Shown: piece after piece, positions 39,803-63,082 of the stretch | Layout: every line of letters begins with the position of its first letter | Position numbering within the stretch: position 1 is the stretch's first letter | From: Apophysomyces variabilis | Taxonomy: Eukaryota > Mucoromycota > Mucoromycetes > Mucorales > Mucoraceae | DNA: 64,000 nucleotides | NCBI GenBank assembly: GCA_002749535.1 | Contig: MZZL01000398.1 | Span: 248,001-312,000, forward strand | Reading direction: 5' to 3' | Program-made: the position numbers and the translations under genes | The notes under the pieces: model-generated | What the model saw: the letters and a program-made list of their open reading frames with translations, nothing else | Told to the model about the DNA's origin: nothing | The model's database searches: none

Positions 39803-41538
39803 AAAACAAAGGCGCGGCCCCCGACCTCTGTTCATTGGAACGTAACACCATCGTCCTTTTTTTCTTTACCCTTTTCGTTCTCGCTCTTTGTTCTTTCCAC
39901 TTGTTGTACAGCGTATTCCCTTTCCCAGCATGCATTCTCCGATTTCCTTTGTTCCACGATACCCCCTCTCTCTCGATCGCATAGAATCTCTTAAAAAGAG
40001 AAACAGAAGAACTATCTCTCTACTTTCTCCTTTCCGTCAAAAAATGAAAATAAAATGCTTCCCCTAACAAAAAAAAGAAAAATGAACTCGTTTCTAAAGA
40101 GCCCCGTAAATCTGAAACGTGCCACTGTCAGAGAATGACTTTTACCTGCCTTCCCCTAAAATGTGAAGTTCCTGTGTTTAGCCGTTACGAAACTGCGTCA
40201 GCTGCATCAAAAGGGCCAAACCTAGTAATGAAGTCCACTAGCTTTAAACCTTGAGTTTATTTGCAATCATCATTCATTGGCACAGGATACCACATGGTAG
40301 ACGTATCAAAACTTGGTATCGAACATGCTCGAGATAACATAAAATAACCATGATCTTGGCCAAAGAAGAATACAGTTCAGGTGGAATTAAGCACTGTGAT
40401 ACATATGCTCTATCTCATAGCATTGTCAACATGCCCGAAACCATAGCAAAAACATGTACTGTATTGTTTGTACCGCGATATGTAGGTTTATTAGATCATT
40501 GACACCGACATCCACCGTTGTCCTGGCAGTGAGTTCGAATTTGCTTGTATTGACCTACTGAGTTCCCACCAAACTAAATAATTTAATACCTTTCATGCTT
40601 GGTAATGTCTTTACTATTGCCACGAGAAAAGTATATTATAGAAAGCATGTGAAGATGACGTTGAAATTATGGTTTGTTTTCCAAAATACACCTTACTTGG
40701 ACAGGTCCAAACTATTTTCGAAACACTGAAGCGCACAAAGGTGATGCATGGCGAAGATCTAGACAGGTATAGAATCCATTTGCTATTTTCTGCCCTCCAT
40801 TATTGACATGGGCTATTACCACTTCTGGATGAGATCAATTCCTTCAGGTGACACAACGAATAAATGCATGGACGGTCAAATAGATAGATTCTATCATTTG
40901 TATTCTGAAAGAAACGGTTGACGCAAGGAAACGCTGCACCTGCATGTAGATTTATTTTAATAATCAAAGTGCCGTGCGTCAAAACCAAGAAAAGGGACAT
41001 GAGGACATCAAGTCTCTCGGACCATGGGCGAGACGCAGCATGTTTCTCAAGCTTTCAAGTCCTTGCTAACATAAAAATGAGCGAAATATAGTTTATGTTC
41101 TGGGTCGAAAATAAGTGTGATATTTGAACTAAGCCAGTATGGAGCACTGTGTGACAGTCAGAGATTTACCATAGATCTTTTCTTTCATTATGCAACTTAA
41201 CCAATGTTTGAACCCATATTGATTTTTGGTAGAAGACGCCTTTCGGTGTGAAATAGGAGGATGTCTTAGAGCAACCAATAGAGTACAGTATAACAAATTC
41301 CTATAATAGGCATTGTTGTGAATCACACAATGAGACTGAATTTAAAAAAAGAAACCTGTTATATGTCCGTCATAGCGACGGATGCCGGTCTTCGCATCCT
41401 GTTTATAAAATAAGCAAATTACTTGTGCAGATAACTAACAGTAACACCTACCAGTATGGTGGCTTTCTGAAGACGACTGTACGCACCTATAGTAAAGATA
41501 TATTAGCTGTTAAAGCTGCCACACTTTAAATATGTCGG
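39803..41538. other. 1.7 kb spacer; 3' flank of the Fanzor gene at right
   Basis: No gene recognised. The left 250 bases are a pyrimidine-rich 3' UTR with A-rich runs (about 40040-40085). The right end contains the region just after the Fanzor stop, with a compact hairpin pair listed separately. I saw no clear terminal inverted repeat. Confidence 0.35.
41367..41399 (-). other. overlapping hairpins downstream of the Fanzor gene, candidate guide-RNA scaffold
   Basis: Read on either strand, CCGTC (41367-41371) pairs with GACGG (41377-41381), and GGATGC (41380-41385) pairs with GCATCC (41394-41399). The two stems share two bases, so they are alternative or coaxial. The site lies about 140 bases 3' of the Fanzor stop, where guide RNAs of TnpB/Fanzor elements are usually encoded. 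That it is transcribed or bound is inference. A splice model that extends the Fanzor protein could instead make part of it coding. Confidence 0.25.
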
Positions 41539-44500
41539 TTACCTTTGAACGGTGGTATCGGCAATATTGGATATTCCAGCGTCAAAATGGCTGGGATCAA
41601 ATGGTGGCAACGTTATCCTCTCTGCAGAAAAAAGGTTGCTGATCGCCGCTAGTCCGATGGCCACGGCGGCTTGAACGTCGCGATTTTGAGTCGTACGCCC
41701 TGCTTTAAAAGTAACACACTTCGAGTTGACGCAGCGCGAGCTTCCATTCATAGTACGCCATTTAATTTCCTTGTAACGACGCCCTTTTGGGTGAATTATC
41801 TTCTGAAAACAGAATACGCATGTTTGCGAGCTACGATGCTCATCTGTCATTGCCACTGGGGTGTACCTACGGTGTCTCGCCCGTAACCATTTGCCTCCAC
41901 GCTTAGGATGGCCTTTCAATCTGGACCCAACACACGTCCCTTGGGTGCCAATCGCCATAACTGGTATTACCCTCCTTCCGCTATCATGTGGCCCCGCTTC
42001 CATCGCGATCTTTCTTCTCTCGTTTGCAGCCACTCTATCGTATATTCTCTCCTTGTAGAGATCTTGTATCACCTTTTCTTTGTGCCACCTGTTTGAATGG
42101 TAAAAATCCCTGAGCGTCTTTCTACAGCTCCGACCAATCTATAAATGTGTATGTTATCGATAGTTGTCCAAAAAAGACTAACGATTACCTTTTGACAACG
42201 AATAATATCTTGGACTGACATAGCTTTCTCCATCGAGGCTTCTTTCAATTGCTCTTCGGCTGCAAGAACCTCTGTATTCGACTGTGGCAATTATCACATA
42301 AGCACAACATATTGTAGCTGGCTTATTTACCTTCTTTCGTCGCTCCCGTTTCTTGCGGAATGTCCTTGCAAGTGTTTTTTCATCGAGCGATTTTGCCGTG
42401 ATACGTATCGGCTTTGGTAGCTGGAGCATGTCAGTAGGAGAGACATCGATATCATCATCGTGATCATTGACGTTATTGACACCCAGCATCGAATATCGAT
42501 TGTAAAGCTGTAAATGGAAATCTGCTCTTTGTCTCGTAATAGGCACTGTAGTCGACAGCACTTGCAAACCGTAATCAGTGCCACTGAACGTTAGTACATT
42601 GTTCTGATCTTCTAAAAGTGGCCCAAGGTCTAGTCGGCCTACGCTGTCTTCACAGCCGGGGCGTCTCCCACTTTGGGGTCTGCACAGGCTATCCTCCTCC
42701 TCCTCCTCATCCTCCTCCTCATTTTCCTCGTCGTTATTGTCGTTGTGCTTGTCCTTCTTTTTCTCCTTTTCTTTTTTGTATTTGGTATCTTCTTCATCAC
42801 CGTCTGCTTCCTCCATTTTCTCGTCTTCTCCTCCTTTGCTTTTTCTCTCTTTTCTGCCAGCAGGACTTTTACCTTTTTTCTTTTGATGCGCTTTCACCAA
42901 CTGTACGATTCTGTATATTAATATACGCTTTTATGTTGATGCAAGTTTGTATTCAACGTTACCTGTTCCAACTTGTACTTCTTCCGTCTTGCATTTGCTA
43001 ACCGATCGTGTACTTGATTCAAAGCCATTTGTTGGTTTGACCAGTTCAATTTTGCAGCTTTTAAAGCTTCATAGCTCAGTTTCTGCTGTTGATATGCTGC
43101 TTCCTTTTCAGTAACGTTTTCATGTTTGTCTGCCTTTCTTTTGTCCCTTATGCGCTTTTGACAAATAGCTTGATTTTCCTGATAGCTAGAGCGCAAACCT
43201 GCAACTAACTTCGTGGCTTCTTTCACAAGCTTGGTGTGTTGACATTTCAACGTTTCAAGAGTTTTTACATCCTTCTTTGTATCATCGAGAGTCTTTGCTA
43301 ACTCAGGCGTGCTTTGTTGTTCGATGCTCGGCTCTTGGACGTAGGGTTCCTTTTTCCTATAATACTTCTTTCGTCTCGCCTCGTACCGTGATTCTATGGG
43401 TCTTCTTTGTTCACAAACGTTACCATCAATAATTGCTGTTTTCTGCGGAGTTACTGTGATGCGCCAGCGTGGTACCAACCCACGCTCCTTGCATGTTTTT
43501 TCAATAGCCTCTACGTTGAAAAACGATCCAATCACTGTTCGCTTTTCTGCTATTGCTTCGTCTCTGTTTGTGAACACTGAGCCGTCTGCCTTGTAAATAT
43601 CAAGCTGGGCATAGCTTGACCCAAACATTTCATACATGGCTACTGCATCTAGTGGTAGTGCGTGAACAGAAGCAGGGCTGATTGTGGGACATATCGAAGC
43701 AGTGAACTCTTGATATCCAATCGAACAGAGCAAAGCGTTCGCCAATACTACGAAATTGAGACGCAGCGGTATACAAGGAGCAATTTGTCCCCTAATGACG
43801 TACGGCCTTAATGCGTTTGCGATATTCACCACGGTATCGATTTCTTGAGGAGAAAATGCATCGTCCGCATGAGAGGTAGCTAGCACATCTTCCACTGTTA
43901 CATGGCCGCTGATCTTATCTGACTGTAGGAGGGCTTTGGTAATAGCTTGCAGGATACCGAGCTTTCGCCTGCTTGGCTCACTTGTCTCCTCCTTCTCCTC
44001 CTCCTCCAGTTCTTCTTCTATTTGTTCGAACACACCGATGTGTGTTTCACCGAGGGATATCAAAATCTTCGCTTGCTGCTCCTATTTTGCCACGTAAGCA
44101 TATATCCTAATCAATAATGAAGTTTACCTCTTCTTTTGTAACCGACGCTCGGTTGTTCATTTGCTCTACTTTTATTGATTTTGGGTTGGACCTGGACTCC
44201 GATCGCGCCAGCAATTGATTTTCGAGCCGTTCGATCGCCTCAGCACACGTCGCCGCACGCGTGGCTAGCCTTACCAAGATATCATCTTCTTCTTCCTGCT
44301 CGATCTGCTTCTTCAAGTTTCGCAATTGCTTTTTCTCGTTTTTTAATTTCCTTTTGATAGCTTTTTTCCGATATTGGTACTTGATCACTTGTTGCTGCTC
44401 GATTTCTTTTTCTCTTGCTAGTTTTGCCTTCTCTCTGATTTCTCGTACTTTTTCTTCACGCCTTGGTGCAAGATTAACACGGAGTAGAACACGCAATAAG

Positions 44501-45609
44501 TGATTCATGCTTCTGTTGTAAAGAGATCCTGCCCACATATTCTTTAAATTCGTCGAAAATTGCTTCATGTAAAAATGCGACGTCCTGCAAAGACCATCGG
44601 GAATTACAGGCTGATTGTCAAGAGTTTGATCATGGAACTGCATCCATAAGTAGTGTTTTTCTTTGCTCACGTTTCCTTTTGTGCCAAAATATAACCCGTG
44701 CAGAAATTGGATATGGTTCTCATTGAACATGGAAAGTAGATCGTTGTTTCGCCTGCCTGGCATCTCGTCAAGAAACTGCGAAAGATTATCTGGCATTCGG
44801 GCTACAGGTACAAAATAGTCATCTACCAGCATACTTTCGTCACGTAATTTTTCTTTGGGTACAACTGTACGGATATCGAAGCCAGTTGATGTTTGGTCCA
44901 ATTCAGCTTTCACTGAACCTGATGCTGGGTCTAGAGACAAGGAAACTGACACGTATTTCAACATGGTAGCACGTACAACAGTTGCCAAGTCGGACACATA
45001 ATCCGTCATTTGCACGGACGTCGACTCTACCGTGTGCATAAAAATCCTTTTCAGATTTTCGTCAAGATCCGGCCGCAGTACGGATTTCAAAGGAACTGTA
45101 CATGTCCTGAAAAGGTTATCCGAGTCTTCATCTTTCTTTTTGGGTCTGTTCTGCTTTCCTTCAGCTTTGACCACAGCCAAGACATCATCGAAGTTATCGA
45201 CCGCGCATTGTCTCCAAAATTCGCCTGTTTTATGGGACGACGAGAGTCTAGAACGTATCTGTTTCTCTATTGTCCCTTTAGGGACGCCCGCTTTTTTGTC
45301 TGCTTCCTCAAAACTTCCTCGAGGGATTCTGTCTGCTTTTTCAAGAGCTTGTCGCAAACGATTCATCCTTTTTTCTTGAGCCTTCAGTCTCTTTCCTTTT
45401 GTTTTGGCAGACTGTTTTCCTTTCTTTGTTTTTCTAGAATTTTTTGTCTCATTTTTCCACAGTTCGTTTGCTATAGTACTCTTCAACTTCTGTAAAAGTA
45501 CTCCAAGCAAGGTATTTTTGGCTTGATCGTAGGATATCTGAGGCTCTGTTTGCCTTTTCCTTTTTCTTCTGGCGCTACCGCGTGGTGTAGGTAATTGTAT
45601 TTCGTTCAT
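41539..45609 (-). CDS. Fanzor: eukaryotic TnpB-like RNA-guided nuclease homologue
   Basis: Five exons on minus (45609-44128, 44081-42963, 42900-42331, 42281-42189, 42138-41539), all in phase 0, with introns of 46-62 nt, give 1,287 residues without a break. The C-terminal third is a TnpB/Fanzor nuclease. RuvC-I Asp is about residue 976 (TFSGTDYGL). The zinc ribbon has CVFC (1195, 1198) and CVNSKC (1224, 1229). The second acidic residue lies in TDEHRSSQTC (Glu about 1188), the rearranged position known for Fanzors; the usual RuvC-II site reads VMAIGTQG without Glu. RuvC-III Asp is about 1242 (TQNRDVQAAVAIG). The N-terminal 860 residues are Lys/Arg/Glu rich with coiled coils (about 410-470 and 750-860) and basic stretches (SARRKRKRQ) suited to nuclear import and nucleic-acid binding. 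Fanzors cut DNA guided by an RNA encoded next to the gene. No transposase lies beside it. The acidic tract about residues 890-935 precedes RuvC-I. Confidence 0.85.
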
Positions 45610-48048
45610 AAAAAATACAAGAAATGTTGGATCTAGTTCTCAAAAGTAGAACGGAAAGGTGATATGCGAATTGTTCTCTGAACTGTTGTCCAATTTTCAC
45701 TTGACAGATTGGACTGCGAACTTTTCTGATAAAAAAAAAACTGAAACTTTATCACTTTATTTATCGTGGCTAGCTCTCATGTAGTTGAAAAGGAGAAAGA
45801 AGATAACGAGAAAAATTCGATTCGGACAACAGAGAAAAAATGGACAAGTCTTTATAACGGTTGGCAAAGAAGGGAAAGACCAAGGATACAAAGTATAAAG
45901 AACCTAGGTTATAGTGATTGCTATTGAGAAAGAAGCGGCAATATGAATAAAGAAAATCACAGGGAAACAAGGGACAAAGGTTAAGCTGACTGGAATATAC
46001 ATGATCGCACTCCCACTTTTATTTCTTACCTTTTACTACCTTTATATCCAACCAATCTTGGTTCATGGAAAAAGACGGAAAAGGTTCGCTTGCAACGTAT
46101 CAGCGAAAGAAGAAAACAAAGTACGAGAGCAGAAAAGGCACACAATTAAATGTCTTTGTGTCGGATACAGGCCGCATAATTGCTCCAGTTGGTTGGGTTG
46201 ATTTAGCCTTGCATCAAAAGATCGATAAAAGCCGGGCACTTGCTGTACCCTTCCATCTCAAAATCAAAGACCTGCATGCTCCAGAAATCGCGTGGCCTCT
46301 GTTCGCAGTAACATCGTACATTGCAACAGAAATCTCATACAGTTGCGTAAACGCGCCTCCGTGTTTACATAAAGGTAATACATGGACAAATTGAGCGGTA
46401 CTTCACATGTATAATCTTTTTGGATTGCCCCCATCAACGGTCGATGTAATTGTATTTTTTCTCATAGACTTGTGAATGATTTTTACTCTGCTGCCACATC
46501 TTCAAGTCCTTCTCATACGAATGCCGATGTGAGTGTAATCTCAACGCTGTTTGAGTAAAGTAAAGACGGCAATCAACTTTTACGTACGAATCCCCCGTAA
46601 AATGTCCAAATTGCTAAGGTGTACCGTCGTTTTCTTTGGGATATCCTTGTATGGAAACCACTTCTTCAAGACTAAGTTTTGCCTTGATTACGATGTGACC
46701 ATCTGCGTACTGCTGACCGCTACGATAGACCTACAGAAAATTCAGCAAGAAAATGCGTCCTACGGTTTAAATAAAGAATGAAATAGTAAGCACGTTATCA
46801 TGAATTGCTTTCTGTTTCGATTTATATTGCGCTTTTGTGTTCGAGCTCTGCATCTCCGTTTTCAAACTCAATGCATGCACCACAACTTCATGGTCCCGCA
46901 TACAGTTTTGAATCGACTCCTATAATGCAGGCTCAATAGCATCAGCACTACTGCTTGCAACCGTTAGAGGGATATCTTCCTGCTGTTAGTCTGGGGTACA
47001 TGCTTCGGAGGCACTGCTGTTGAACGATAATATTTGGAACGTTCGATGTAGTGCTTCACTAGCCTTTTAAAGATCTAGTTATCAAAAACTTTTAAGGAAA
47101 AAGGAAAGGAAAAGAAGTACATTTACAATCTTTATATAAAGAACAGCCATTTTGGGGAAAACGTACCCGGTTCGTTGATATATCCCCGCCATTACTACAC
47201 TGTCTTATCTAAGTCAATAAAAACTTAACTTTAACTAGGAGATTTTCTCCAAGTTCAAAGAACCAAATACGGCCAGCTTCCAGATTTCTGATTATGTGAA
47301 GCTATGGTACTTTGTAAAAGGTATTTAAAAAGCTTAACACCTCGCTTATCAGTGTCAATGTATATGACTGAAAGCCCGAACTACTGATGATTTGATTCCA
47401 TTTTGCGTTTAATAAGGGCAGCGATGTGTTGCAAATTCTTGCTGGCACACGACAATAGGCATGTGTGTGGAAGAAACGCTATACTACAGATTAACCGAAT
47501 GCTAAATAGATAACCCATTCAAACAGAAGCTTACTATAGTTTGAATTCGATCTGTTCTTTCTCTTTGTTTTTTAGCTTCCATTTCTTTTTTTCTCCAAGA
47601 AGATTAAGAAGACAATGGTGAATGAAGCTCACATTATCATTAGTTTATCCACAGTTGTCTGCTTTGGATTCCTGTTGTTATGTTCCCTTTTCTTTATATA
47701 TTTTTTTACCTTATACACCTAACCTTATCTGAATTTAGATTTAGGTGGAAGTGACACACACAGAGATACTGTGAAGAGAGAGTTTTTGAAAATGTACGAT
47801 CCCTGGATCATGGCCGGTCTTGTTGAGTATTTCAGTCTGGTCACAATTTGACTGGTGACCTAAGTCATGACCCACTCCCTGTTATACCCTAACAGTACCT
47901 TCCTCTCCAGCACTCCGCCGACCTCTCTTTTTGGCAATATGTGTGACTGTCATAAGAATCCCTGTGCTGGGGAAGAAAAAAAAATGACAAGGCTTTGTGG
48001 TGGGTTTCTTTTTTTCCTTATTCCCTTCTCGCTAGACAATATTAGACT
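45610..48048. other. 2.4 kb spacer with weak ORFs
   Basis: Upstream flank of the Fanzor gene and promoter region of the acyltransferase gene. Apart from the ORF at 46065-46394 nothing is supported. Pyrimidine-rich and A-rich tracts alternate. No tRNA, and no inverted repeat matching the other side of the Fanzor gene, was seen by eye. Confidence 0.35.
46065..46394 (+). CDS. uncharacterised ORF, possibly a retroelement protease-like fragment
   Basis: A frame of 109 codons has a basic start (TYQRKKKTKYESRKG) and then VSDTGRIIAPVGWVDLALHQ and FHLKIKDLHAPEIAW. The second part recalls the strand following the active site in retropepsin-like domains of Ty3-type polyproteins, where a GRIIxPxGWxxL pattern is common. 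There is no catalytic DTGA-type triplet and no flanking gag or pol, so at best this is a fragment. No satisfactory splice to downstream frames was found. Confidence 0.25.
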   Translation: MEKDGKGSLATYQRKKKTKYESRKGTQLNVFVSDTGRIIAPVGWVDLALHQKIDKSRALAVPFHLKIKDLHAPEIAWPLFAVTSYIATEISYSCVNAPPCLHKGNTWTN

Positions 48049-49623: not shown

Positions 49624-52204
49624 TTAATAGTGAGCTACTCTAACGTACACATTCGTTTCTGCTTTCAAGCGTCTTAAAAGAAGAATGGTTTTGGTGATGA
49701 CCTGTGCTGGGTGAAAGGGAGAGTTATCGAATACAAAAGCCCAATGCGAGCGCCAGATATTCATCGTGACGCAGGTAACGAAAGTTAAGAAGTCGATAGA
49801 AGCATGTTCCTGCAATGGCAAAGGTGGTGGATCAACTGTGAAGATAGAAGCAGACGTGAGGTGTGAGAGGCTGACTAGAAAGAGATTGGTCAAACGTTGC
49901 CAAACAGGTTGTTTGTATGGGAAGGACCACAAAAGATGTTCTTGAGATTCGACCAGGCCACAAATAGGGGCAAAAGGCGATGTAAAATGAGCAGGCAGCA
50001 GTTCGTGGAGGCGCTGACGGTACGGTAGACTATTGTGATAGTCTCCAAAGAATTGTGTGAGCTGTGTTAGGTAAGCGGGCGTTCCAGAATCCGGTCCAGG
50101 CTTTCTTGGTGGCTCGTGGGTAAGTGGCATGTAAAGTATCCAAAGCCGGTAGCTGAGCTAGGCGAAATTCAGAGCGCGAGATAGAAACAAGAGATAAACC
50201 GGATTGGAGATTAGGTGAGACAATTGCAGTAAAATCGAACCCGGACTTCAGAGTGTTATCATCCCCTGGAATAGAAGTGTAGGTTAACAAGGCTTGGAAA
50301 AAGGGAGCCAATCGCCACGAGCCGTCTGGAGCAATTGCTCTGAGAAATGCAATGACCTTATTCCGTTGCCTTCCACTTTCGGAGGCGGTTTGAGGACGTA
50401 AGCTGCGTAGTAGCGGATCAGAGATATAGACTTCTTTCACCAGTGACTTTCCCCAGTCTGGTTTCAATCTTGGAGGGAAAGAGCCGACAAAAGAGCAAAT
50501 GCGGCCCAGCGGGATTTCGTGTGCCGTGAGATGATTGAGAGCGGACCAGTTCGGCTGAAGTCTAAGGGAATCCATAGCGCGGAAGAGTGTACGGAAGTGT
50601 CCTAAATCCAGCAGAGACGGGGTTCGGCGTTCGGGAATAGTGCTAAGAGGGAGGGGGAAGGGCATTGAGAGTATAGGATCAAGCAGAAGTATAAATATGG
50701 ATTCGCTAAGACGAGCGGAGTGGTGGTGGGGAGGGGGGACAAAAGCCTAACAATGGGAGAATCCAGCGAAGCTGCAGAGAGTTATGATGACCCAACGGGT
50801 CCAATATCCCCAAGCCGCCCTGTGCGCGAGGACGTATACACGTATCGAAACTTACCCTTGGGAATGAGCGACCGTGTAAGAATTTCCCAACGGCAGAACG
50901 TATTTTTTGCAGGAAAACAAGAGGGACTGATAGGATACGTATGGAATACCGGATACGACTGAGGGGCAATGAGTTTGCGAGAAGGGCTTTATCACGAATG
51001 GATAGAGCGCGCGACGACAAGAGGCATGAATATGCTTCTACCTTGGCAATCAGTGATTAAAGAAAACGATCCAACTGTTCAGAAGAGCCAGTAAGGGGGA
51101 AACCTAGGTAGATCGAGGCAATCGGAGAGTCCCTATCATGCCAATTGCATATGTTATGTCGCAGAAGCGCTTGATGCCATTTCGTGGACACCACACCATC
51201 GAGGGCGATTGGAACAGTTTTGGAGCGATTGACGCGGGCATTAGACGCCCTGCCGTATGTGACGAGCAGATCAATAAGATAGTCAGCTTCCTGTGGGATG
51301 TTGAGAAAAACGAAGACATCATCTGTATAAGCTAGGCATTTAAGTGGTGTCGGTGGTGGTATCGGCGGTGAAATCAGTGTAGTGCTAGGGTTGGCGAAAG
51401 AAAATCCTTGAATCAAAAAAGATGAGTGAATAACCCGTAATAACGGTTCCAAGACTAAGTTAAACAGGAGCGAAGAGAGCGGGTCGCCTCGCCGTAGTCC
51501 ACGACCTGGTTTGCAAGGTGCTGATAAATGACCGTTGATGTTGATACAAATAGAAGTTTGAACGAAAAGATTCGAAAGCAGCCGGCGAAATGTATGAGGA
51601 AACCCAAAGCGTCCGAGACAAGCATCCAGATATTGTGGGTGGACCCGATCATATGCTTTTCTTGGTCCAGTATTAAGCCGACTCCCGGTATGTTGTACTT
51701 CTGAGCGATGGACAATGCCAACCGAACGAGCAATCCATTGTCGGTAATAAATCTTTGACGTAAAAAGCATGTCTGGAAAGGATTGATCAACCGTTCCATA
51801 AATGCTGCTATGCGACTGGTTAGTAGCCTGGCAAAAACTCTGGCATCAGAACAAATGAGAGAAATCGGTCGCCAATTCCGCAAGAGGGATCTATCGCCTT
51901 TTTTCGGTAGAAGCACCACTACGGAGCGTTGCCAGGTGGCTGGGAAGCGCTGGTGAGACAAGGCTTTCTGAAAAACGTTAGTGAGCAGCCGTCGTATAAA
52001 AGGATATTCAAAGATAAATCTCAGGAGTTCATATGGTATTCCATCAATGCCGGGGCTACTTCGTTGGGCTGTTCGTGATAAACCATGCAGGATCTCTTCT
52101 TCCGTCCACGGAGCCATTAAGGCGCTTGCATCAGGAGTTGAGAGTTGGCTGTCAGGCGGTATATGTTGGATCATCGCGTCAATGGCCGAGACATCGACTT
52201 CGTG
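49624..52204 (-). mobile_element. degenerate non-LTR (LINE) retrotransposon, 5' truncated
   Basis: On minus, from about 52204 the frame enters a reverse transcriptase: SSPGIDGIPYELL, FPATWQRSVVVLLPKKGD, NWRPISLICSD. A one-base deletion near 51655 separates ILDQEK from AYDRVHPQYLD. Then come GRGLRRGDPLSSLLFNL and the catalytic box, here YTDD instead of YADD. An in-frame TAA stands at 51057-51059. Further breaks divide the C-terminal part, which carries a zinc-knuckle-like RT region (FAPICGLVESQEHLLWSFP) with two cysteines lost. The endonuclease domain is missing, so the copy is a 5'-truncated dead LINE. No poly(A) tail or target-site duplication was found. Confidence 0.88.
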
Positions 52205-52247
52205 AATTTATTGCAGCTAGTTAAAGAAGCCGAGTTTCCGGAGTCGT

Positions 52248-53756: not shown

Positions 53757-55089
53757 TCAGAGATCTCGTTCTTCATTCTTACAATGAGGAAAGAATGATA
53801 TTGAATGCTTAATCCAGGCTTGGCAGTCTGATCTGGTCACTTTGCTTACTGAATCAGAAATCCGATCTGTGAGTCTATCATCAGCTTTCAGTGCATTTCT
53901 CCTGATACCTGCTTTTACCTTTGACCAAAATTCTTCAATGGGATTTAGAAACGGGGAATATGGCGGTTAAGTACAGGCATTTATAGCCTCTGCTCTCAAT
54001 CGGATTGCGAACAACCACGATATAATGACCTTTCATATCACGTGTATCCAGCATGTCCATCACGTTTGATATATAGGACAGGAAGTGCTCTGTTCATGTA
54101 CCAATCCGACCATTCACTGCCTTTGTTTCTTTCCCGTTAAGCTTTCTCTTTTTGAACACAGACAGCCTGAGGCTTTCTCAAAGATATATCTATCACTCCA
54201 GCCTCAGATATGGCACCTAAAATACTAGTTGTAACTCCTTTTCCAATTGGTATAGTGCCTTTTTGCTGGCGTGCCTTTCACAGAACGACCATAATTTCTT
54301 TGAGTATGCAGGTTGAAACCAGCTTCGTCGATGAAGACACAGTATTTAGTGAAGTCTAAGTCTTGCATCTTTTCCCACTCTTCGACTTTTTCCTTTCGCA
54401 ACGTTATTACTCGATCGGAATTCCTTGCTGCGGGAAGCTTTTCCAACTTTTTCAAAGTTATACGGCAATTACTGACTAAATGTCTATGCAACGCCGATTC
54501 TGAGATAGTTAACCCTGCAAACGCCTCACATAAGCTTTTATTTATGTCAGTCAGAATAGCAGTCGGATTCTTATCAATGTAATCTACAAGCAACTGGGAG
54601 TCAGCTTCGGTCAGCTTGCCATAACATCTAGCACGAATCTTCCTCTGAACTCCAGGTAGACGTCTTTCTTTGTCCCGATTGTACGTTTTGATACGACGTT
54701 GAGCAGTTCGAACATTTATACCTGTGATTAGCGCTGCCTCCTTTGCTGTTCGGCCCTCTTCAATCACTAAATTAAACAGCTTTTCTACTTGCTGCGGGGT
54801 ATACCGTCTGTATGATCCTCTTGCTCTAGCTTTAGTCACCTGTTCATAGTCTCGTTTTCTATGTGGTCTGTTTAGAAAAACTAGGTCTTGCTATACTTTT
54901 CTCTTCAGTATCATCAGTGGATGATCCGGCTTCTGACAATGTACGCATACACACAAAGGCACCATCTACATGATAAATATCTTTCCGCCATCTTTCACTC
55001 AAAATAGCTGCAGTTGAACGAGACAATCCTGCCCACTCATTTGGTTCATCATCCTCAGGACATGTCAACGTCAAATGAAGTAGCATCAT
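53757..55089 (-). mobile_element. decayed Tc1/mariner-type transposase
   Basis: On minus the frame runs FVCMRTLSEAGSSTDD, is cut by TAG and TGA codons near 54850-54885, then continues in a long open piece (54839-54225): GSYRRYTPQQVEKLFNLVIE, a helix-turn-helix with TGINVRTAQRRIKTY, and the first catalytic Asp in YCVFIDEAGFNLHTQ. After a frameshift near 54235, remnants read HYIVVVRNPIESRGYKCLYL and PPYSPFLNPIEEFWSKVKAG, ending near 53757. The second catalytic Asp (usually in a DNAPIH motif) is gone. The element is dead. At least two stops look like C-to-T changes of CAG or CGA codons. Confidence 0.88.
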
Positions 55090-61303: not shown

Positions 61304-63067
61304 GTTGGTTTTATTTAACGCCTCTATTTGAACACAGCGTCTGTGACAGACATGTTTTGCTCGAGACCGCTCAAAAAAGAAAAGGTGGAATAAAAACCCT
61401 GCGGATGAGGCAGGGAAAAGGTCGAAAGAGTGACGTAAAAGAAATATAGAGGAATAAAGAAAAACATATAATGAAATAGAAAGGAAACGAAAAAAGGAAA
61501 AACAGGGAAGAAGAGGGAGTCAACTTTGATGTGCCTAGCTTGATTGAGGAGGGAGAGCATCGAGCCATTCCAGAACGGCCTTTCCCGGATCTGGGTCATG
61601 GTATTGTTGTGGATCTGATCCCGGATGCTGGTGAGCATCGAGTTCGGCAAGAATTGTGCATACAACTGACCATATTGTGCGGATCTGTTGGCGACGGCGG
61701 GTGAATCTGGGGATCGAATGCGGGAGGAGGTTGAGGCAGAGGGACATTGGATCGTCAGTCTGTTGGCGGGTAATGCCTAGGCGGTCATGCATACGGAGAC
61801 AGTCAATGGCGTGCTTTTTGGTGAGGTTCAACATAGCCGCAGGTAATGCAGGCATTTTTCTTGCCACCGGGTAGCTACGCTAGTCGCCAGCGGATACACC
61901 TGCTGTGGTCTCGTCTCGTCATGGGTAACCACAATTTTGGGTCTATGCATAGCGTGGATCGGCATGCTGCTAGGATCCGTGCGCCAGTAGCGGCTGATAT
62001 TATCGTCGTATGTGCGTGACGCAGGTATTGTCTGATTGTCGCTGGGAAAACCTTGGCCGAGGCTTCTTCTTGTGGTACCTCGATGCTTTGCCAGACGGGT
62101 GTGCGGCAGAGTTTGTTCCAGTGGGAGGTCGAAGAAGAGAGAAGTAAGGGCAGAAGTGTGGTGAGTAAGGCGTCCCCCGGAAGATGTCCGGCACGACGTA
62201 GGAATTTTGCTTGTAGGGTACCTGTTCGCTCTTGCATGCTAGGTAGCTTGGCCACGTGTCGCATCACTTTGGTTTCGGAGTGGGGATGGGCACCATAGAT
62301 CATACGAATACAAGTGTTCTGAGTACTTTTGAGTTCCTTGAGCTGAGTTTTGGTGAACGGGACAATTGCTAAACCATATTCCAACTTCGGCCGGATGAAT
62401 TGGGCATACAGCCTGCTGGGTAAGAGGCGTGAAAACCTGGAAGGGTTAAGGCCGATGTGGTTGACGATGCGCATGCTGGTGAGTGCTGATGACGAATTTC
62501 GCGCGATCAATTGTTTAGCATCTAATCGGCCACGGTTGTTAAATGGAACACCAAGGTATGCGAACGAGGAGGCAGCCGGTATTGGTGTGTCATACAAGTG
62601 ATAAATAAGAGCAGATCGAAAAGGCTGTATTATTACGCACTTTGCAGGATTCCAACAATAGCCTAATTGTTTGCTGTGGTTCTCGCAGAGCTCAAGTAGT
62701 TCATGCATTTCTTCTGAAGTTCCAAGTAGCGCAACGTCGTCAGCGTATAGAAGGCACTGTATGCTTGGTGTTGTTGTTTGGTCAGATCTTTCGCTCCTGA
62801 GCAGCGTAGGCAGGCTATTAATGTAGAGGGAGTATAAAAAAGGGGATAATATTAAACCTTGTAGAACGCCAGTTGTAGGAGAGAATCGATGGGACACTGC
62901 GTTCGAGATAAGGATTGCTATTAAGTCATCATCAAATAAGTTTTGAAGTAAAGAGAGTAGGGGAGGGGGGAGCAAGGAAGAAGGAACAAGGAGTTTCCAA
63001 ATAATGTTACGGTCGACTGTATCATATGCGGATTTGATGTCCAGAAACGCTAGAGTAGGAGGAGAAC
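61304..63067 (-). mobile_element. 5'-truncated LINE retrotransposon with target-site duplication
   Basis: The minus-strand frame begins inside the reverse transcriptase (SPPTLAFLDIKSAYDTVDR) and continues open for 366 codons: GVLQGLILSPFLYSLYINSL, the catalytic LLYADDVALLG, and a thumb/connection with FAYLGVPFNNRG. It ends with a TAG in place of Trp after CIRWRLA (61875). A frameshift follows in the zinc-knuckle-like end (NACITCG, then HAIDCLRMHDRLG in another frame). The 3' part after 61535 is T-rich non-coding and ends gttaaataaaaccaac. Exact 15-bp repeats flank 61304 and 63067. Endonuclease and N-terminal RT are absent, so this is one truncated insertion. Confidence 0.9.
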
Positions 63068-63082
63068 CTGCTATTCACTTAC
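63068..63082 (+). repeat. target-site duplication, right copy
   Basis: Exact copy of 61289-61303, directly abutting the 5' truncation point of the LINE. Confidence 0.85.

Follow-up and report, generated by a model that had tools for sequence, protein, structure and literature searches.

The fungus Apophysomyces variabilis carries, on the minus strand of the stretch analysed here (assembly GCA_002749535.1, contig MZZL01000398.1, positions 248,001-312,000 of the forward strand; this 64,000-nt stretch is the window, and its coordinates are used below), a gene for a 1,287-residue protein that we accept, on the similarities described below, as a Fanzor1. We consider it probable that this is the nuclease gene of a Crypton-type transposon in which a large Fanzor1 is carried and the element's own recombinase has been lost. 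Homology among the copies of this element, termed family A, extends 2.3 kb upstream of the Fanzor start codon and 252 bp beyond the stop, after which each copy has its own flanks. The element is about 6.6 kb long, with its upstream end, in gene orientation, at 47894 and its downstream end at 41287/41288. An earlier reading of the window from sequence alone (the sequence-only reading) had described the gene and overlooked this multicopy element with defined ends. The element and its gene are laid out as follows:

41287..47894, minus strand: whole mobile element, family A; homology among copies stops here and the flanks differ
44128..45609, minus strand: Fanzor exon 1, residues 1-494
42963..44081, minus strand: Fanzor exon 2, residues 495-867
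42331..42900, minus strand: Fanzor exon 3, residues 868-1057; acidic/Lys linker and RuvC-I Asp976 (TDYG)
42189..42281, minus strand: Fanzor exon 4, 31 codons; equal length in family B
41539..42138, minus strand: Fanzor exon 5; rearranged Glu1188, C4 zinc ribbon, RuvC-III Asp1242, stop

The five exons are joined in phase 0 with GT..AG boundaries throughout and give 1,287 codons closed by a TAA stop. Translation and the matching exon layout of a sister family, family B, bore out the unbroken five-exon frame proposed in the sequence-only reading. Because family B, whose protein is 44% identical, also forms one open frame from five phase-0 exons in the same arrangement, its exon 4 again having 31 codons, the exon model is backed by more than one sequence.

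Copies, selection, and Fanzor1 identity

The family A element is mobile and was recently amplified. In the whole genome (38.7 Mb in 126 contigs), the gene has 13 complete or nearly complete copies at 98-100% identity, plus several partial ones. The frame is kept in 8 of the 13 (the window copy, L009, L010, L012, L019, L020, L022, and L023; L009 has an in-frame 3-nt deletion), or in 8 of the 18 examined when five partial or decayed copies are included. L028 (88-91% identical, decayed) was counted for intactness and for the tail alignment described below only. At its downstream end, L012 has lost the last bases and the recombination arm, breaking off near GCCTATT; its Fanzor frame is nonetheless intact. 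Since contigs C44 and C52 end inside family A copies and C15, C48, and C112 begin in one, the family A copy number is a lower bound; the element probably breaks up the assembly, so that its copies are underestimated. The right ends on C44 and C52 were considered as solo ends and rejected, as they are contig ends.

Against the family consensus, 15 copies showed 70 nonsynonymous and 32 synonymous distinct coding variants, together with two stops. With a ratio of nonsynonymous to synonymous sites of 3.67, these counts give a dN/dS-like value of about 0.6, which is mild purifying selection, with transition bias outside the estimate. Variants in the eight intact copies stand at 29:12 nonsynonymous to synonymous. 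Among 14 copies, 102 of 4,071 columns vary in the gene, introns included, versus 131 of 2,289 upstream. Between families A and B, the proportion of nonsynonymous differences (pN) was 0.38 and that of synonymous differences (pS) 0.85, the latter being saturated. The gene had been proposed to be either recently active or under selection; both apply, given 13 near-identical copies in different flanks and ratios that are not near 1 within family A or against family B. A reading of the Fanzor as passive cargo, no longer used and with intact frames that just reflect recency, draws on the five broken copies among the 13 and on the mildness of selection within the family. However, selection between the families is strongly purifying, and the guide-RNA-like tail described below is retained in both; we regard this reading as quite improbable.

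Family B comprises 12 equal-scoring copies of an element of about 4,960 bp that encodes a 1,257-residue protein; four copies were compared whole (99.86-99.9% identical to the first) and both ends were compared for all 12. Identity between the A and B proteins is 38% over residues 1-494 and 44% over residues 495-867. For the N-terminal 494 residues alone, pN was 0.42 against a pS of 0.83, which shows that the large N-terminal region is under selection and is not filler. The description of this region as a Lys/Glu-rich extension holds mainly for the linker at about residues 868-950 and does not fit the remaining N-terminal region. The extension may hold new functions, as the sequence-only reading suggested. 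An annotated protein of Apophysomyces ossiformis (P0005) is 99.76% identical to spliced family B across 1,251 residues, with no gaps, and lends the exon model further support. Relatives in the Mortierella group are also large (P0001 from Mortierella alpina, P0002 from Actinomortierella ambigua, and P0006, with 1,346, 1,467, and 1,541 residues), so large Fanzor1 proteins are not confined to Apophysomyces variabilis. These are relatives among the matches listed, about 8,000 best candidates per homologue search, and closer named relatives may exist.

A profile built from the C-terminal 339 residues and five relatives, searched against the PDB up to E=10, matched exactly two distinct sequences, the Fanzor1 proteins SpuFz1 (E=7.3e-5) and PpFz1 (E=0.079). 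The alignment sets tDEhrsS-C of the Fanzor family over DEYKTSS-C of SpuFz1 and RD over RD, and E1188, the rearranged Glu just ahead of the zinc ribbon, aligns with the DE of both proteins. The Fanzor1 signature described by Bao and Jurka (PMC3627910), a C-terminal D followed by a [TS][TS]xx-C4 zinc finger and an RD motif, is present as D976, RSSQT-C1195..C1198...C1224..C1229, and R1241-D1242. D976, E1188, D1242, and the four cysteines C1195, C1198, C1224, and C1229 are invariant in the family A protein, family B, P0001, and P0002. The intact catalytic Asp/Glu/Asp and zinc cysteines described in the sequence-only reading were thus confirmed, and its assignment of the gene to Fanzor, with the C-terminus placed inside that group, is supported.

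General-purpose searches gave little. A whole-length protein profile had no PDB match up to E=1. It counts against the assignment that Pfam TNB stayed under the cut-off for the family A protein (E 0.14 and 0.23); the same domain reached 4e-4 in the best of six members. Single exons gave, besides this TNB match, weak Pfam matches that were mostly coiled-coil or low-complexity. The one NCBIfam match of any relevance was TnpB, at E=1.3, in a single one of six members. On the RuvC/WED/REC fold, an AlphaFold model of a relative, P0007, had a mean predicted local distance difference test (pLDDT) score of 48, too weak for a fold search. Judged from its sequence, the family A Fanzor would be expected to carry out RNA-guided DNA cleavage, and its gene is presumably expressed.

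Ends, target site, and recombinase

An exchange of the tyrosine-recombinase type at a TAC-type site is well supported for family A. The features at its ends and in its upstream part are:

47895..47900, minus strand: target-side half-site AGGTAC, adjoining the upstream end; family consensus A[T/G]GTAC from 14 left flanks
47888..47894, minus strand: 7-nt spacer TGTTAGG; TATTAGG in 8 of 12 paired copies
47880..47887, minus strand: upstream recombination arm GTATAACA, inverted copy of 41288-41295
41288..41295, minus strand: downstream recombination arm TGTTATAC, inverted partner of the upstream arm
46016..47172, minus strand: CryptonF tyrosine recombinase relic, N-terminal half, broken by stops and frameshifts and lacking the catalytic C-terminal part

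At the upstream junction, in gene orientation, target A[T/G]GTAC is followed by the 7-nt spacer and then by GTATAACAGG; the downstream junction reads GGAATTTGTTATAC, then T, then target. Twelve copies were used for pairing the two sides and 14 for the left flanks; L012, whose right end is missing, and L029, whose right end is absent from the stretch examined, stood outside the pairing, and L009, L014, and L017 are right ends only. All 14 left flanks end in AC and 11 end in TAC, while 3 of the 14 have forms other than A[T/G]GTAC. The right and left spacers are equal at position 1 in all 12 pairs, at positions 2 and 3 in nine each, and at positions 4-7 in two to five. Four left spacers deviate from TATTAGG, and each of them carries the base seen on its own right side. 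For family B, the left side is mostly GAAATACC, spacer GAGTG (11 of 12), and GGTATTCCC, with flanks that end in ACC in all 12 copies; on the right, CAGATACC is followed by G (the first base of the flank after the ATACC arm in 11 of 12) and then by target. Terminal direct repeats stand at both ends, TACT and often TACTAT in family A and ATACCG in family B. Published descriptions give Cryptons terminal direct repeats of 4 or 6 bp, no terminal inverted repeats (TIRs), and a proposed circular intermediate (PMC3212892). In the right flank of L021, the seven bases directly past the downstream arm, TATTAGG, match the usual spacer of the element, as though it had been left behind there.

The L019 insertion sits in a repeat, and at least 16 other places match its flanks across the site, a lower bound from scoring the best 40 of 98 candidates. 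All five of the places examined run through without element or duplication, reading ATGTAC-AAATAAATG in three and ATATAC or ACGTAC in the other two. At L019, the TAC side is therefore target DNA, and there is no target duplication in this comparison of one insertion with five empty copies. Among the matches listed, the other 11 paired insertions had no empty relatives.

Over 1.7 kb, the DNA upstream of the Fanzor gene shows about 70% identity to loci without a Fanzor match. By its domain matches, one such locus, L052, is a CryptonF tyrosine recombinase: its frames match Pfam NDC10_II in two pieces (4e-23 and 2e-35) and GCR1_C. In tblastn against the family A consensus, the N-terminal pieces of L052 matched, with stops and changes of frame, at 45% over a length of 215 aa and at 59% over 92 aa, and its catalytic C-terminal piece had no meaningful match (best E 2.5). 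The possibility that the upstream 2.2 kb contains another working gene was rejected, as this region holds a recombinase relic with stops in the family consensus. Family B (L032) had no match to the two main L052 recombinase pieces at E 1e-3. Because family A has only a broken N-terminal relic and none was found in family B, we call family A Crypton-derived and not a complete Crypton. The upstream terminal sequence can be aligned among family A, L024, and L053, and more loosely with L052. Elsewhere in the genome there are recombinase-like frames without a break across the match, which makes mobilisation in trans possible. Three related CryptonF-like loci (C77:596978-598054, C10:29526-30344, and C120:74020-75096) have long open frames of 610, 355, and 389 codons around the match, with a stop in one piece of C120; on their similarity, they are possible trans-acting recombinases.

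A classical DDE transposon with target duplication was rejected, since the empty L019 sites show no duplication. We also weighed an ordinary cut-and-paste DNA transposon with a 4-6 bp target duplication and a DDE transposase acting in trans, in which case the likeness to a recombinase site would be chance. In keeping with this alternative, bases inside the left end often equal those outside the right end (the 9 of 12 at spacer positions 2 and 3), and 9-bp duplications are described for other Mucorales Fanzor1 elements (PMC3627910). However, comparison of L019 with its empty copies shows a non-target spacer base (T versus A) as well as no duplication, the mismatches at positions 2 and 3 are too frequent for copies that are about 99% identical, and the strict target motif and the Crypton relic remain to be accounted for. 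We therefore hold a cut-and-paste origin to be unlikely.

Several observations weigh against the Crypton-type reading that we favor. Tyrosine recombinases typically use two inverted arms of 11-13 bp flanking a 6-8-bp segment (PMC3212892), and the arms here are shorter, at 8 bp in family A and 5-6 bp in family B, as is the 5-nt family B spacer. The empty-site evidence covers a single insertion, L019, where spacer position 1 is T at both junctions and A in the empty copies, and where 29 alignment columns of the empty copies are missing from the flank, some 20 nt away from the junction. Because of this mixed spacer base and the missing columns, the L019 exchange was not a simple single crossover; repair after a short staggered exchange would be expected to leave such a mixture of element and target bases. 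We found no recombinase flanked by this pair of ends, and we could not locate the right end of the L052 Crypton. Finally, all 12 paired insertion sites differ, so homing is not demonstrated by these data.

The giant Fanzor could also move the element itself, its N-terminal extension being, or recruiting, the recombinase, which would make the element a single-protein autonomous transposon. Family B, at about 5 kb, has no other open frame longer than 131 codons and yet exists in 12 near-identical copies, it does not match the two main recombinase pieces, and the extension is conserved between the families. Against this, the extension has no recombinase or transposase match in Pfam, and the recombinase frames that are open elsewhere could act in trans. 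We consider self-mobilisation very unlikely and favor a Crypton-type element mobilised from outside.

The 3' tail and the proposed mechanism

The 3' tail of the element, downstream of the Fanzor stop codon, is probably a guide RNA, as judged from its predicted fold and its variation between families. Its features are:

41287..41390, minus strand: candidate guide (omega/f) RNA scaffold at the element's 3' end; the guide would run below 41287 into the flank
41366..41382, minus strand: core hairpin UCCGUC-GCUAU-GACGGA (stem-loop 1), with compensatory changes in family B
41350..41363, minus strand: terminal stem, 5' strand, from the fold
41289..41302, minus strand: terminal stem, 3' strand, which includes most of the downstream recombination arm

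The last 104 nt of family A fold at -24.9 kcal/mol (z -2.59; 2 of 200 shuffles were as good) into a hairpin followed by a long stem, for which the end of the element itself supplies the 3' strand. In family B, the hairpin is CCUGUC-GCUAU-GACAGG: two pairs are changed on both sides, none is broken, and the loop is the same. Its terminal stem is again formed by its own, different end. The hairpin starts about 96 nt ahead of the element end in family A and about 125 nt ahead in family B. Across 16 family A copies, substitutions affect 9 of 173 columns through the hairpin (7 of 148 before it, 1 of 17 within it, and 1 in the 8 columns between) versus 14 of 79 past it, mostly in the loop between the strands. 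Two results speak against a guide RNA: the family B fold has a z of only -1.42, with 24 of 200 shuffles as good, and one hairpin stem column varies in two family A copies. A scan for GCTAT-like loops detected the hairpin in none of seven tails of more distant Fanzors, and as far as tested it therefore belongs to families A and B. An Rfam scan of the window at the gathering threshold gave no matches. In the published accounts, the omega-RNAs of SpuFz1 and PpFz1 have a single stem-loop 2 between stem-loop 1 and the guide (PMC11423790), and other Fanzor1 right-end element RNAs (reRNAs) have transposon ends predicted inside the scaffold (PMC10711439).

We infer that the mobilising enzyme of the family A element is a CryptonF recombinase encoded elsewhere in the genome, which would excise the element as a circle and insert it at A[T/G]GTAC. 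The 3' tail would then serve as the guide RNA scaffold, closed, as its structure suggests, by a terminal stem built from the recombination arm of the element itself, with the flanking DNA past 41287 supplying the guide. The target-adjacent motif (TAM) of the Fanzor may be the same TAC-side motif. TnpB has been proposed to offset excision loss in that it cuts the empty site and repair copies the element back. By analogy, the Fanzor would cut the empty site and repair would restore the element, offsetting its loss by excision.

A more far-reaching version of this scheme, which we offer tentatively and rate as doubtful, holds that the recombinase and nuclease signals have merged, with the arm also forming the terminal stem of the guide RNA and the target half-site also acting as the TAM. 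If true, each insertion would automatically program the nuclease against its own empty site. In the boldest form of this idea, the giant N-terminal extension may also have taken over the role of the recombinase, which would explain why the latter is dead in family A and not found in family B.

Known systems and neighbouring sequences

An association of Fanzor1 with Cryptons is already known from published descriptions: among the Fanzor1 families of Mucor that Bao and Jurka described in 2013 is MCi-2A, which has a truncated Crypton recombinase and which they left unclassified (PMC3627910), and a 2023 paper lists Crypton recombinases among Fanzor1-associated transposases (PMC10711439). As described there (PMC3627910), MCi-2A of Mucor circinelloides resembles family A in being a Mucorales Fanzor1 element with a near-identical part of about 6 kb (MCi-2 has 11 copies in all) and an upstream partial Crypton recombinase, which in MCi-2A lacks about 200 C-terminal residues. 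In contrast, MCi-2A and 2D are reported with 11-12-bp target duplications (ATAATTNNNN), whereas family A has none at L019, and the MCi-2 subfamilies differ in their 5' regions, whereas full-length family A copies have one common 5' region. The ends and target motif of family A fit a tyrosine recombinase, which on the published description sets it apart from the unclassified MCi-2. The MuDR-type Fanzor1 elements ROr-4, PBl-3, and MCi-4 have a 9-bp duplication and MuDR TIRs; family A has no duplication at L019, and its two ends have only the 8-bp arms in common, with the MuDR TIRs themselves outside this comparison.

SpuFz1 (Spizellomyces punctatus, 8gkh) and PpFz1 (Parasitella parasitica, 9cf0) share with family A the rearranged Glu, the C4 zinc ribbon, and the RuvC-III RD, and their guide RNA, with its stem-loop 1 and stem-loop 2, is described in terms that resemble the candidate tail (PMC11423790). 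According to the same account, most Fz1 proteins have 600-700 aa, compared with 1,287 aa in family A, and the RuvC Asp lies at residue 976 in family A versus residue 383 in SpuFz1 (PMC10432273). Like CryptonF elements as described (PMC3212892), family A has short terminal direct repeats and no long inverted repeats, and its recombinase relic, the relative of which matches NDC10_II and GCR1_C, links it to them; it differs in having no working internal recombinase and carrying a Fanzor instead. IS607/IS605 TnpB elements show a similar order of nuclease gene, right-end guide RNA, and element end (in part after PMC10711439), with a TAM that equals the insertion motif, as may also hold for family A by analogy. 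Family A differs from these in being eukaryotic and spliced, with tyrosine-recombinase-like ends.

In the literature searched, we found no paper on Fanzor in Apophysomyces or Mortierella. The same literature, part of it followed in detail, yielded no Fanzor1-element end structure with empty sites, no tail RNA common to two Fanzor1 families, no Fanzor1 proteins of this size, and no account of the Fanzor load of the Apophysomyces variabilis genome. Size, ends, and tail set family A apart as a new variant. For one family, the present data bear on the question raised in 2013 of whether Crypton-associated Fanzor1 elements use Crypton-type recombination, and they give a layout that can be tested, comprising the ends, the target motif, and candidates for the TAM and the guide RNA.

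Fanzors and their remnants, from several families, abound in the host genome: tblastn with exon 5 gave 115 matches in 103 clusters across the genome, many with internal stops. With about 103 clusters and two recently expanded families of giant proteins (1,287 and 1,257 residues, about double the usual length of a Fanzor1), this genome is a good natural setting for studying the role of Fanzors in eukaryotic transposons. A further set beyond A and B consists of five places with an identical score at 37% in exon 5 (C27:199898, C95:3320652, C107:34935, C110:80543, and C79:226340). Another Fanzor group, L058, L059, and L060, is about 40% identical in exon 5 and has a G+C-rich 3' tail conserved among the three, which diverge past a common end, AATAAACAGTA or AATAATCAGTA; this tail is possibly a different guide RNA.

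Elsewhere in the window, the sequence-only reading had described nearby long interspersed nuclear element (LINE) copies as full of stops. This does not hold for 61875-63074 (minus strand), a LINE-type reverse-transcriptase frame (RVT_1, 2e-19) that is open for 399 codons. At 51057-52207 (minus strand), two overlapping frames both match reverse transcriptase and probably represent a frameshifted LINE copy. At 54225-54890 (minus strand) lies a 221-codon helix-turn-helix frame (Pfam HTH_32 and HTH_28, both under the cut-off), whose label as a Tc1-type transposase comes from the sequence-only reading alone.

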